Position numbers and translations under genes: made by a program. The notes under the pieces were generated by a model. That model searched no databases. It was given only the letters and a program-made list of their open reading frames with translations, and was not told the DNA's origin. Shown one piece after another: positions 21,440 to 56,826 of a DNA stretch of 64,000 nt. The stretch's first letter is position 1. Each line of letters opens with the position of its first letter. This stretch comes from Favolaschia claudopus. Lineage: Eukaryota > Basidiomycota > Agaricomycetes > Agaricales > Mycenaceae. The stretch is taken from contig JAWWNJ010000253.1 in the NCBI GenBank assembly GCA_037176885.1, positions 62,001 through 126,000 on the forward strand. Reading direction: 5' to 3'.

Positions 21440-21988
21440 TTGTCCCTATTGATACCGGATTTTCGTCGCAACGACATGCTCTCTTCGTGGTCGCATTGGC
21501 CCAACCCTGAAGACTCTTTTATTTCTGGAGAAGCTACCAGTATCCATTTCAGGAATGGATACACTCCGAACCTTCATGTGAACTTCGGCCCTGTCTCCAC
21601 TTGGTCTCCGCTCAATTTGCCTGAGATTCATGAACCATCTTCTCAAATTGCATTCGGCGCTGGCAGAATTGCTTTGTATGAATCTGAAGCGGAGTTGCAT
21701 GGTCAATGTGCACCCATATATTCCCTGGTGCGTGCCCTGACCCCACCAACACATGCTATTGCTCATGTTGTCACAATACTCGCCAGACTTTCAATTTCAG
21801 AGTGGGTGTACATACGACTGGACTCCAATGGCTCGACTTTTTGTTTGCATGTCTGGCTAGGCTCGTTACCAGCCTGTCTACGATATACAACGAATTTTTA
21901 CATTGGGGAGTGTCGTTGTGTATACGGCAACGACCCTCCCCAATATAAAAATCGTTGCATTTCGTATACAGACTGGTCACGAGTCTAA
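21440..21988 (+). CDS. ORF carried in the MULE, function unknown
   Basis: An 182-codon open frame beginning MSLLIPDFRRNDMLSSWSHW. Residues 1-140 look protein-like (mixed, aromatic-rich: NLHVNFGPVSTWSPLNLPE), while the last 43 codons run into a 128-bp hairpin and are probably not original coding sequence. No domain is recognised. A TIR element with one host-like frame and no transposase resembles a Pack-MULE carrying a captured fragment; this is inference. Confidence 0.4.
   Translation: MSLLIPDFRRNDMLSSWSHWPNPEDSFISGEATSIHFRNGYTPNLHVNFGPVSTWSPLNLPEIHEPSSQIAFGAGRIALYESEAELHGQCAPIYSLVRALTPPTHAIAHVVTILARLSISEWVYIRLDSNGSTFCLHVWLGSLPACLRYTTNFYIGECRCVYGNDPPQYKNRCISYTDWSRV
21860..21987. repeat. 128-bp hairpin MITE
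   Basis: GGCTCGTTACCAGCCTGTCT and a near complement pair over about 58 bp each side of a short loop. It forms the 3' end of the ORF at 21440-21988. Confidence 0.7.
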
Positions 21989-51247: not shown

Positions 51248-51278
51248 TCCAGAACCTAAGATGAGAACTGAGACGAGA

Positions 51279-51526
51279 TAGTCTCGTGACCAGCCTCTCA
51301 CGACATCCCAAACTGGGAACCCTGTCGTGAGAGTCTGGAACTATCATCGGCCAGGTAACCGTACCCTTGCTCTATCACTTTTGATCTATTTTTCACACGC
51401 TAACAGGCCTCTTTCCGACTCTTCCGTGGCTCTTCGGACTTTTTCGGAGCCCTTCGGAAACCCTTCCCGCACATCCGGCGGAGGGTTCCCACGCTTTGCC
51501 TCACCTCTCGGGCGTGTTTCTCGCAT
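51279..51526 (+). repeat. Left terminal inverted repeat with subterminal hairpin
   Basis: Sixteen bp from the tip, CTCTCACGACA (51295-51305) pairs with TGTCGTGAGAG (51323-51333). The 17-nt loop holds a smaller CCCA/TGGG pair. An open frame of 66 codons runs through the repeat but exists in both ends, so it is not taken as a gene. The repeat lies 84 bp before the helicase start and probably includes its promoter. Confidence 0.8.
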
Positions 51527-51610
51527 GTTTGCGACGAAGTTTTAGCACTTGTCTCTTGCTTTTGTACACCCTCTTTAGACTTTAGCTATCCCAAGTCTCT
51601 TAGCCTCCAA

Positions 51611-53692
51611 ATGAGCACCAATTCTCATTCAAACAGGTCACACCATGCCCGGTCTTCATCAGCATCAAGTGCTTCTTCTTTTGTATCTACTCCACGCCGC
51701 CCAAGTGGTCTTCGGAATGCTTCTACAGATTTGGCATCTCCCGGAAATCCTCTAGCTGTAACTCCATCCGAGAAACAGTATAGAAATGGCTATGAAATTC
51801 AACCTAAAGCTTTATCTTTCAGACCATATTCCTTGAACAGTCCTGGTACTTCCCCTCGGGCTGCCTTTAATCTGTCACAGAATACTCTGCTGAACAAGAC
51901 TGAAGCCCTTGATCCCTCTCAGTGGAATGAGCTAGCAGTAGAGGCAGGGCTTTTACCTGAAGGAGCAGAGCTTCGCTCTTTTCAAGTACAAGTTTGCAAT
52001 CTGGTTTTGATGGGCAGAGGTGACTGTGTCTTGATATCAGCCACTGGATCTGGGAAATCTCTTACTTGGACCTTACCTCTGGTTGCACGCGGTGAAGGAA
52101 TCTCTCTTGTCATTACCCCTTTCACAAGTCTTGGTTTGGAAGGCGAGATGTTGTATGTTATTCAATTTCAATCCTTGACAAAATTGTGTTGAATTAAATG
52201 AGTATCCAGGAGCAAGACAGGAAACATTTCCTCAAAATTTATATACGCAGAGCAACACAGCGAAGAAGATTATGAAGCTGTGGCCAGAGGCGAAATGACA
52301 GTTGTTTATGTCTGCCCAGAAACATTGGAGTCTCCTGCATTTGCTCGGCTTTTACACTCACAGGCATGGAGAAAAAGATTATCAGCTATATACCTCGATG
52401 AAGCACATCTAGTACATCAGGCTCGTGGTTGGCGGCCGTCATACTCTCGTATCTACCAGCTTCGGAACATCATTGGAAATGATGTTCCCCTGATTTGTCT
52501 TTCTGCCACTTGTCCCGAGGCTTTTCGTGCCTCGCTTGTAACGTATGCAGGTCTCCACCCAGACTACACTCTCATCAATCTGGGGAATTTCCGTCCTGAA
52601 TTGTCAACTATTATCATTCCTATGGAAAACGACATTCAAAGCTTTCTTGATATTGCATTCATACTTCCACTGGGCTGTAAACTTGCAGATCTTGTGAAAA
52701 CTATCATTTTCTGTGACGATATTGATCGGCTGACAGAGATGTTTTGGTGGGCATTTTATCGAGCAGCTTATCTTCAATTGCCTACCCATGTCATTGACAT
52801 AATTCATTCTGGTCTTTCACCTCGTCATCAAGAGCTTGCTTTACAGGACTTTCGAGATGGAAAAACCCTCATACTGCTTGGTACCTCAAAGATCAGTGCT
52901 GGAATGAATTTTCCAGGAGTACAACGTATCCTACAATATGGATGTGAAGGTCTCACTATCCCTGATGTTGGTCAGCGTGGAGGAAGGGGAGGGAGAAAGA
53001 AGGGTGAACGTTGTGTTTTGGTGCTCCTTGTTGAACCTAGCATGCTCAAAGATATAACTGTTGACAACCCCAAAAATCAAGATCCACAAATGATTGAGCT
53101 TCTTCAATCAAAGGAATGTGCTGAAAAGATAATTCAGAGACATCTGGGAAATACGAATAACTGGTATCGGAATGAGTCAATGCCATGCTGCAATAGATGT
53201 AACCCAGAATACAAACCTCCCAGACAGTATAAATGGATTGATGTCAACCCCGCACCCAAATCAGACTATGTTAGTGTGAAGACAACAAAACCTCAAGAGG
53301 AAACAATATACAAAAGACTTGTAGAGTGGAGACTTGATTACTGGAAGAAGTGCTGGAAAGATGACTGGCCAAGTTATGGGCCGAAGTCACTGGTTTCTGA
53401 TGCTGACTTCCAAGAAATTTCGACTCACACTGGAAAGATTATTACATTGGAAGATCTGAGAAATTATACTCATATTCTTCATTGGGCTGCCCTCTCAACT
53501 CCCCTTCTCAAACAAATCCACAAGATCTGTGAAGATCTCAATGTCCTCCCTACTTTACAAGTTGTTGAAACAGCTGAGCTACCTATTGTTTCTGAACCAG
53601 TATCTACACGCAAAAGGAAAAGGGCTCCAACAGCAAAACTAGAGGAAGGAGAGATGCTCCTGATGGATTTATCATGGTCTACAGATATTTGA
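51611..53692 (+). CDS. RecQ-like DEAH-box DNA helicase, 674 aa
   Basis: Two exons, 51611-52152 and 52210-53692, with a 57-nt GTATGT..CCAG intron and 2025 nt of coding. Residues 1-90 are a Ser-rich leader. Superfamily 2 motifs follow in order: a Q-motif-like LRSFQVQVC; Walker A ATGSGKS (144-150); a DEAH box (244-247) in IYLDEAHLVHQ; SAT (279-281); and motif VI QRGGRGGRKK near 440. A CCNRCNPE cluster after 500 may be a reduced zinc-binding part. The order and the AxGxGKS/DEAH pair fit RecQ-type helicases, which unwind DNA using ATP. The start is the first ATG in good context after the left repeat. No damage is seen. It is convergent with the DUF6589-like gene. Confidence 0.85.
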
Positions 53693-53715
53693 TTACAAAA
53701 TGTAACTAAGTAGAA

Positions 53716-56485
53716 CTACTCATACTCGTTCAGTGAATCAATTATGATTGCATCCAATTGTTCAATCAAGGAAATTTGTGGCCGAACATTGTCTTGCTTA
53801 AGTTCCTTATCAAACTCTTCATCCAAGCTATCCAATCCCAGCTGCTGTATATCAGATTGGTTGAAATTTTCATAGTAGCCTGGTGGTAGCTCATTATCAT
53901 GACGTTGGCGAGACCGGAGATCGTGCCGCTGCAAATGCTTTGCATGACCACCTTTAGGGCCAGAAAGGCGATGTAAACCAGTCTGAAAGAGATCCACAAC
54001 CAGATGGCTGGATGCTTTGTCTTTGGAAAAATCAAGAACATCGGCTTTGCAAAAATGTTCCAGGAGTAAAATGACATCCTCATGCTGCTTGACATCAGTG
54101 TGACGTTGGTCTGCATCAAATACACCAAGCTCATCAAACATCTTCTCAGTCAACTCTTGAATATGTCCAATCGCTGGAGTAATTCTCTCCAACAAGCCTG
54201 GTCGGGCATTGCTTCCGTGTGCATGGGATTTGATAGATTTGTTGAATTGTTCAACCCGAATATCTGTTTCTTTGAAAGTTCTACGTTTTCCTTGATTGTT
54301 CATAAACATGCCCGCACGACGTATTTGAGCTGTCTCTGGTGGCCAGTCATGAATTAAGTTGTGTAAGAGCTCCATTAGCTCATTTGCATAGTTGTAGCTC
54401 CCTCCAGCATAAAAGATAGGTGTCCAATATTTCAACATACGCTCTACTCGATCAGGATGCCCAAACTTGATTGCGTCACGCATTTCCCTCATGGTCATAA
54501 GGTCATGCATTAGAAGAATTGCATTTCCGCACTCTGTACTTCCAAGCAAAGACTTTGTCCCCTCAGCTTCGAGTCGATCCACAGAAGGTATAATGTATCT
54601 AGAAGCCACCTGAGAACACAAGACACGATATGAAGCCTCAGTCATTTTTGTCTTCCGGAACTGCTCCACGCTAGATATATCCAAGATCACCATTGCAGCT
54701 CGCATTACAAGTGCACGCAAAATAACATCAAAAAATCTTAGCCAAGCATAGAAATCAAGTTTTTTCAAGTTCAAATTGGGACTATTTGGAAGTTTCGATA
54801 ACAAGGTTGCAAGACTGAGAGCATCAAATGCACCTGCAGTTCCCCAGGTATTTCTGCCTATATTCTGAACTTGATTCATTGAAACATGCATGAGACCACT
54901 CAGAATTGAAATGCTGGCAAGATGGTCAAAGCGATGCTCAGATCGGTCAAGTGCCCTTTGATCTTGAGCTGCGCGATCTCGAGCAGTTGTGAGTCTATCA
55001 CCAAGTACAAAATAATTCTTGTTTTCAAAAACCTCATTGGGAACTTTGAGAACATCGCGAAAGAAGTGGTCAAGAACAATCATGTTGCCTCGAGTTGAAG
55101 TCTGCTCTTGATCGAATGTGGGCAAGAAATATTCTTCAGTCTTCTTAGCTGGAAGCTCGTGTGTTTCGTGAAATGGACCAAGGAGATTGCGATATTCTGA
55201 TAAGGTTCCTACTTCCTCAGCCAAAATATGAGAGACATGTATCGCTGAGTGGTTGAAGAAACAATTTTGATCATCTGCATGGGGCAGTATTTGTTCCAGA
55301 GAAATATCAGGCTCGAGGTGATGTCTGGTGCCGTTGGTTTGTTCAAAGGTGAGAGGGTCAGATAGTCGAGCAGCATCTGTACCATCAGATCCTGGAGGCA
55401 AATCAAGAACAACCAGGAGAGCAGATACTTGATCATGTACTGCATTTCCATGAGTAGCCGATGTCTCCCAAGCTTTCTCAACCCAGTTGAAGTTATCATA
55501 GGGCAAAAGACACATTTTAGACAGATCATTAGCAACCCTGCTCGCTAATCGGGTAGCATCTTTGGAGATAGTTGGAACCGCCTTTGTCTGATAGTTGTAT
55601 GATGTGCATATCCCATAATGGTTGAAAGTCTGTACCACACGCTTGGGAACTTTACCATCCCAGAAGAGTAAGCAATTCATAGCTTGATGCAGGTTTGTTT
55701 CTCTGCTTCGCAAATTCAAAAGCATGGATGTAATCATTGTTCGGCCCTGCATGGTTAACATTAGACAAACATTTGGTTCGTAATAGTAACATTACCATGT
55801 CCGGGTTTCGTTGTTGCCTCTCCAAGTCTGAATCTGGGTTCTGTTTCTGAATCACTGCCTTGAGCAGGGTTTGCAGATTCGGGGTAACACCCTCGTATAC
55901 TTGGAGGAGGCCACGAACCGAGAAAGACTTCAAGTGTTCAACTGTGACTGACTGTGATGGAAGCCGTAGTGCAAGTGCCTCTGCATAGAATGGTCCTTTT
56001 CGGGCTGTCTCAGTCAAACAAGTGGCCTCTTTGGCACAAATTTCTCCAGCCTTTGATATAATTCACCCAGTTAAAGTTGGATCATGACAAGTTTTATCTG
56101 TGTATATCAAGTCAAGAAGATGGGTGTAGCCATTTTGCCCTAGATAAGTCTGGGTGAAATTGGTGATTGTGCTGTCTTTTGAGGTAAATATCTCTTCAAA
56201 AAAAATTCGAAGGGAGTATCGGTTCAATTTCCGAATTGCAGATAGCACTTCCTGAGTTTTCTGTATGTTTGAAAGCTTGGCAGCCCGAGCATTGGCTCCA
56301 TAATCTCCATCATTTGAATCATCTGAAGGCCAGGCCTCAAGCATTGCATTTGAAGAGATGTCCCTGTCCAGCAAGCGAGGGTCAGGAGGACTAGAACGAC
56401 CACCAATTGTAGAGACTCCATCTTCTTCCCTACTAAAATCATCGGACCCGAGCTCCTGGTATTTGAAGCGGAGATGAGAAGACAT
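53716..56485 (-). CDS. Large DUF6589-like protein with one in-frame TGA
   Basis: Exon 1 is 56485-55796 (MSSHLRFKYQELGSDDFSRE) and exon 2 is 55746-53716, split by a 49-nt GTAATG..GCAG intron. The frame is 907 codons but for a TGA at codon 141 (56063-56065). Exon 2 begins with a conserved-looking KVPKRVVQTFNHYGIC, then LLPYDNFNWVEKAWET and LVVLDLPPG. The middle has LMHVSMNQVQNI, and FGHPDRVERMLKYWTPIFYA and NYANELMELLH follow, with a charged tail. This pattern (a PKRhhphh block, hYDNFNh, a late YxxELhxhhH) matches my recollection of the fungal family DUF6589, whose function is unknown. Acidic residues around YDNFNW and elsewhere could be catalytic, but I cannot show it. Confidence 0.7.
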
Positions 56486-56569
56486 GAAACTAAGAAAAGG
56501 ACACAAGAAGGTGGTGGGCAAAGAAAGATGTTTATATTTAGTATTTACATACATGCACAGTGCGCGAGG

Positions 56570-56817
56570 ATGCGAGAAACACGCCCGAGAGGTGAGGCAA
56601 AGCGTGGGAACCCTCCGCCGGATGTGCGGGAAGGGTTTCCGAAGGGCTCCGAAAAAGTCCGAAGAGCCACGGAAGAGTCGGAAAGAGGCCTGTTAGCGTG
56701 TGAAAAATAGATCAAAAGTGATAGAGCAAGGGTACGGTTACCTGGCCGATGATAGTTCCAGACTCTCACGACAGGGTTCCCAGTTTGGGATGTCGTGAGA
56801 GGCTGGTCACGAGACTA
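56570..56817 (-). repeat. Right terminal inverted repeat with subterminal hairpin
   Basis: Inverse copy of 51279-51526 (inner boundary good to about 1-2 bp) with the same hairpin near 56763-56801. It lies about 85 bp before the DUF6589-like start codon, mirroring the helicase side, so both genes are probably driven from equivalent repeat promoters. Confidence 0.8.
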
Positions 56818-56826
56818 GAGACGAGA

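Follow-up and report, generated by a model that had tools for sequence, protein, structure and literature searches.

A probable AcademH-type transposon in Favolaschia claudopus that pairs a DUF6589 protein with a RecQ-like helicase

Introduction

The AcademH lineage of the Academ superfamily of DNA transposons reportedly goes back to Kojima in 2020, in Mobile DNA 11:15. According to excerpts of a later paper, AcademH elements generate target-site duplications (TSDs) of 9 or 10 bp and AcademX elements TSDs of 3 or 4 bp, a difference attributed to the helicase encoded by the former and the nuclease encoded by the latter (PMC10045372). Passages from two further papers report AcademH as low-copy in Basidiomycota, Ascomycota, and Mucoromycota (PMC10799480) and list Academ among the DDD/E transposons (PMC9587614). 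Here we describe a 5,539-bp element, with two genes between inverted ends, at positions 51279-56817 of a 64,000-nt stretch of Favolaschia claudopus DNA (contig JAWWNJ010000253.1, positions 62,001 to 126,000), the whole of which we call the window. The host assembly comprises 264.6 Mb in 460 contigs. We regard the element as very likely an AcademH-type DNA transposon with a DUF6589 DDE transposase and an accessory RecQ-like helicase. Our literature search found no paper on transposable elements of F. claudopus, nor on Academ in Mycena, and the accessible portion of PMC12730594 makes no mention of Academ.

Results

The original prediction, made from the letters of the window, described a two-gene transposon with near-identical inverted repeats of about 248 bp, exact 9-bp flanking copies, and only two genes, convergent and separated by 23 bp. 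Our analysis bears this out in terminal inverted repeats (TIRs), TSDs, further copies, and gene content. The TIR arms measure 255 nt each and are 99% complementary, with the outer 248 nt perfect, and the same 9-mer, GAGACGAGA, adjoins both ends. Between the stop codon of the helicase gene and the end of the minus-strand DUF6589 gene lie 23 bp, and no further open reading frame (ORF) of at least 80 aa was found within the element (Table 1). The 20-bp element end occurs 268 times in one orientation and 267 times in the other in the genome at no more than one mismatch, the two ends in the window included, compared to 0 + 0 for the control. Because a 248-bp perfect inverted repeat, a matching outer 9-mer, and 535 genomic ends against a control of 0 coincide, the structure is not due to chance.

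Table 1 Features of the element (positions in the window)
Feature	Position	Strand	Remarks
Left TSD copy	51270..51278	none	GAGACGAGA
Left TIR	51279..51533	+	begins TAGTCTCGTGACC; outer 248 nt perfect
RecQ-like helicase gene	51611..53692	+	two exons, intron 52153-52209; 674 aa spliced
DUF6589 (PF20231) gene, predicted as probable DDE transposase	53716..56485	-	intron 55747-55795; codon 141 of the 906-codon model is a stop
Right TIR	56563..56817	-	
Right TSD copy	56818..56826	none	GAGACGAGA

The element belongs to a mobile family. Among 100 places listed, 32 pairs of ends face each other within 10 kb, at distances of 89 to 8,688 bp. TSDs were surveyed from 37 sources, which yielded 32 end pairs and 30 distinct entries. 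Of these entries, 22 have an exact TSD of 9 bp, one of 10 bp, and two of 8 bp, while five lack an exact repeat; with apparent alleles merged, an exact 9-bp TSD is found in 19 of 25 insertions and a 10-bp TSD in one. The duplicated sequences vary among insertions.

For the search for empty sites the flanks of 11 insertions were joined and ten of them searched, the window site being left out. Precise empty relatives were found for two of the ten: L029 and L030 have the same 120 bp as the L020 site, without the element and with a single TTCCTATTT, and L039 matches the L027 site in 118 of 119 bases, likewise without the element. Since further relatives with 85-94% identity exist, these empty relatives may be other copies of host repeats rather than the other haplotype. 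Three more candidates for the L027 site (L037, L038, L040) gave no precise match and show gaps of 11-13 bp. For L011 no precise empty site was found, only relatives of 89-91% with gaps, and for L018 none was found, its second copy being occupied too. The searches with L013 and L015 returned no match spanning the whole junction, some L015 matches crossing it by 12-27 bases. In the case of L021, L024, L025, and L028, the repeat around L027 took up the 40 candidates scored out of 3,079, which placed these four sites in effect outside the search. The original prediction had named a one-off inverted duplication as the finding that would count against it; other copies and empty sites were found instead.

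Four of the facing pairs are copies of about 5.5 kb, namely the window element, L009, L011, and L012, and the other three align with the window element from end to end. None of these four carries a third gene for a standard transposase, the second finding named as adverse in the original prediction. As reference for the DUF6589 gene we used model P0002, the 906-aa protein of the copy on contig C7. In tblastn comparisons L011 (C7) covers residues 1-906 of this model as two pieces that overlap around the intron, and the C7 copies are free of stops in this frame. The window frame contains one stop, at codon 141, and mobility of the window copy therefore probably depends on another copy. L009 (C139) has the same stop and further damage, differing from the window element by three substitutions, the loss of 10 bp from the helicase gene (window 53509-53518), and the gain of 5 bp in the DUF6589 gene (window 55517). 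Its TSD is the reverse complement of the window TSD, and its flanks agree in 1000 of 1000 positions on one side and in 850 of 1009 alignment columns on the other. We read L009 as the second haplotype of the window insertion because of this reverse-complement TSD and the identical 1,000-bp flank. L011 and L012, 8,865 bp apart on C7, share an identical element, TSD, and 1,000-bp left flank, while their right flanks are not identical; as element and left flank are identical, they probably represent a recent local tandem duplication of the locus.

A comparison of the window element with L011 revealed an uneven distribution of differences. None of 496 TIR positions (51279-51526 and 56570-56817) differs, compared to 248 of 5,040 inner positions (about 5%); at a uniform rate the probability of this would be 1.4e-11. 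The identity of the TIRs could stem from gene conversion among the ends, from strong constraint, or from replacement of the ends.

Thirteen of the 32 facing pairs are 883-897 bp long. Over about 120 bp at each end, the ten of them that were compared match the long element at about 93% identity, and short copies sharing these ends probably travel as non-autonomous passengers. A 130-bp miniature element is located in the window itself at 21858-21987, with similar ends (TAGGCTCGTTACCAG and TAGACTCGTGACCAG) and its own 9-bp TSD, ATGTCTGGC; it is probably another passenger, belonging to this family or to a sister family. L045 (8,688 bp, C2:2898066-2907753) and L047 (4,025 bp, C38:129215-134239) have the same ends and 9-bp TSDs, and their interiors, mostly unlike the window element, are perhaps nested insertions or captured DNA. 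L046 (7,992 bp, C54:422145-431136) owes its surplus length to insertions that the window element lacks; two of these insertions show overlaps of 4 bp and 2 bp that resemble TSDs of other elements.

The introns of the two genes were set from splice-site letters and relatives, and each gene has at least one. The plus-strand gene was predicted to encode a RecQ-type helicase. In agreement with this, its ORFs match DEAD (PF00270) and Helicase_C (PF00271) in the Pfam scan, and the spliced protein matches the RecQ family TIGR00614 with E = 8.3e-28, although its 97.4 bits remain below the curated cut-off of 219.8. For a 470-aa piece of the helicase the closest solved structure by sequence is the human-named ATP-dependent DNA helicase Q5 (E = 2.3e-7). 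The protein also contains the stretches TGSGKS, DEAH, SAT, and QRGGRGGR, which we take to be helicase motifs.

The product of the minus-strand gene, predicted to be DUF6589-like, matches DUF6589 (PF20231) with E = 4.9e-89. Pfam gives the function of PF20231 as unknown, and our literature search for the name DUF6589 found no paper using it. The PF20231 alignment gave no match to solved structures by sequence up to E = 10, and the NCBIfam search with the protein gave no match either. The nearest folds to a structure model of the protein are the hAT (Hermes) and P-element transposases, at 7-12% identity in structural alignments. In the model a stretch of 90 residues lies between the second strand and the third, and one of 165 residues between D314 and D480; acidic residues are conserved in this predicted fold, with D314, D480, and E689 or E686 as the candidate catalytic triad. 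The protein thus probably is a DDE-type transposase, as far as the model indicates. hAT and P elements themselves duplicate 8 bp and lack a helicase. F. claudopus proteins that share 90-98% identity with the window DUF6589 ORF are encoded on C139 (616,680 bp), C7 (3,309,884 bp), and C54 (1,505,826 bp). In relatives, helicase and DUF6589 matches share 28 contigs, with contigs equated by size, and no match among those listed (120 + 120) carries an Academ name.

Discussion

The original prediction held that known transposon classes do not fit the element. This has to be revised: AcademH, with a helicase and TSDs of 9 or 10 bp in the available text of PMC10045372, fits on the features compared. 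Both traits are found here, the helicase with a TIGR00614 score below the cut-off, together with TIRs and clean insertion, which are general to DDE cut-and-paste transposons. As a DNA transposon from a basidiomycete the element also agrees with the reported fungal occurrence of AcademH, and we noted no difference among the features compared. The name AcademH is probable, set as it is beside the lineage as described in citing papers. If it is right, AcademX belongs to the same superfamily, differing in its 3 or 4 bp TSDs and in a nuclease in place of the helicase, as far as the excerpts of PMC10045372 describe it. The element looks like a good example of a class already described, not a new kind.

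We propose that the DUF6589 protein, as an RNase H-fold DDE transposase, would bind the TIRs, excise the element, and join it to staggered cuts 9 or sometimes 10 bp apart, from which the TSD would arise. The RecQ-like helicase would be accessory, probably opening or processing DNA at the ends or the target, or acting in gap repair. Catalysis by the DUF6589 protein is suggested by its predicted fold, and the role of the helicase, like the superfamily name, is deduced rather than observed. The original prediction that one or both of the element's own proteins may mobilise it accords with this model, in which the DUF6589 protein is probably the mover. More tentatively, and with the balance somewhat against it, PF20231 might supply helicase-carrying transposons with their DDE transposase. 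Its catalytic core would then contain, between the second and third strands, a long and mostly helical insertion of some 90 residues, and an obligatory RecQ-like partner would set the 9-10 bp stagger.

Alternatively, the element could represent a separate, unnamed DDE transposon superfamily that resembles AcademH only in helicase and TSDs of 9-10 bp. The listing of PF20231 as of unknown function and the lack of papers naming DUF6589 in our search would suit this, as would the repeated joining of RecQ helicases to transposons, KolobokH having one as well in the partial text of PMC9587614. However, a helicase with TSDs of 9 or 10 bp is precisely what excerpts of PMC10045372 report for AcademH, and AcademH is reported from fungi in the accessible part of PMC10799480, so that we consider a separate superfamily unlikely.

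Less probable still is a non-autonomous Mutator-like element (MULE) that would depend on a MULE transposase from another locus to recognise its TIRs, with the two genes as cargo. Long TIRs and 9-bp TSDs are indeed typical of Mutator elements too. The MULE-type transposase domain, PF10551 according to an extract of PMC8290104, is not among the matches of the scanned ORFs, which are limited to PF20231, PF00270, PF00271, and, weakly, PF07517; the genome was not searched for MULE transposases. That matches to both genes share contigs in relatives is what a working pair would lead one to expect. The borrowed Mutator-type transposase considered in the original prediction is not needed, because the model of the DUF6589 protein is already that of a DDE-type transposase.

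Helitrons encode a helicase as well but have neither TIRs nor TSDs, in contrast to the window element, and Kolobok elements duplicate TTAA, whereas the TSDs of the present family are mostly 9 bp and varied in sequence. Membership in KolobokH, the other fungal lineage of RecQ-helicase transposons, or in a relative of it, is therefore hardly credible: in the passages available from PMC9587614 KolobokH is reported only from fungi and with a RecQ helicase, and the red-alga element Kolobok-1_CCri encodes its RecQ helicase on the complementary strand, like the window element, but in KolobokH the helicase is found downstream of the transposase domain, whereas the two genes of the window element are convergent.

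On the AcademH-type reading, a fungal protein family which Pfam lists as of unknown function gains a probable identity, that of a DDE transposase. The transposon family has been mobile recently, its ends are perfect, and it offers empty sites and numerous short copies, which makes it suitable for testing what a helicase contributes to cut-and-paste transposition.
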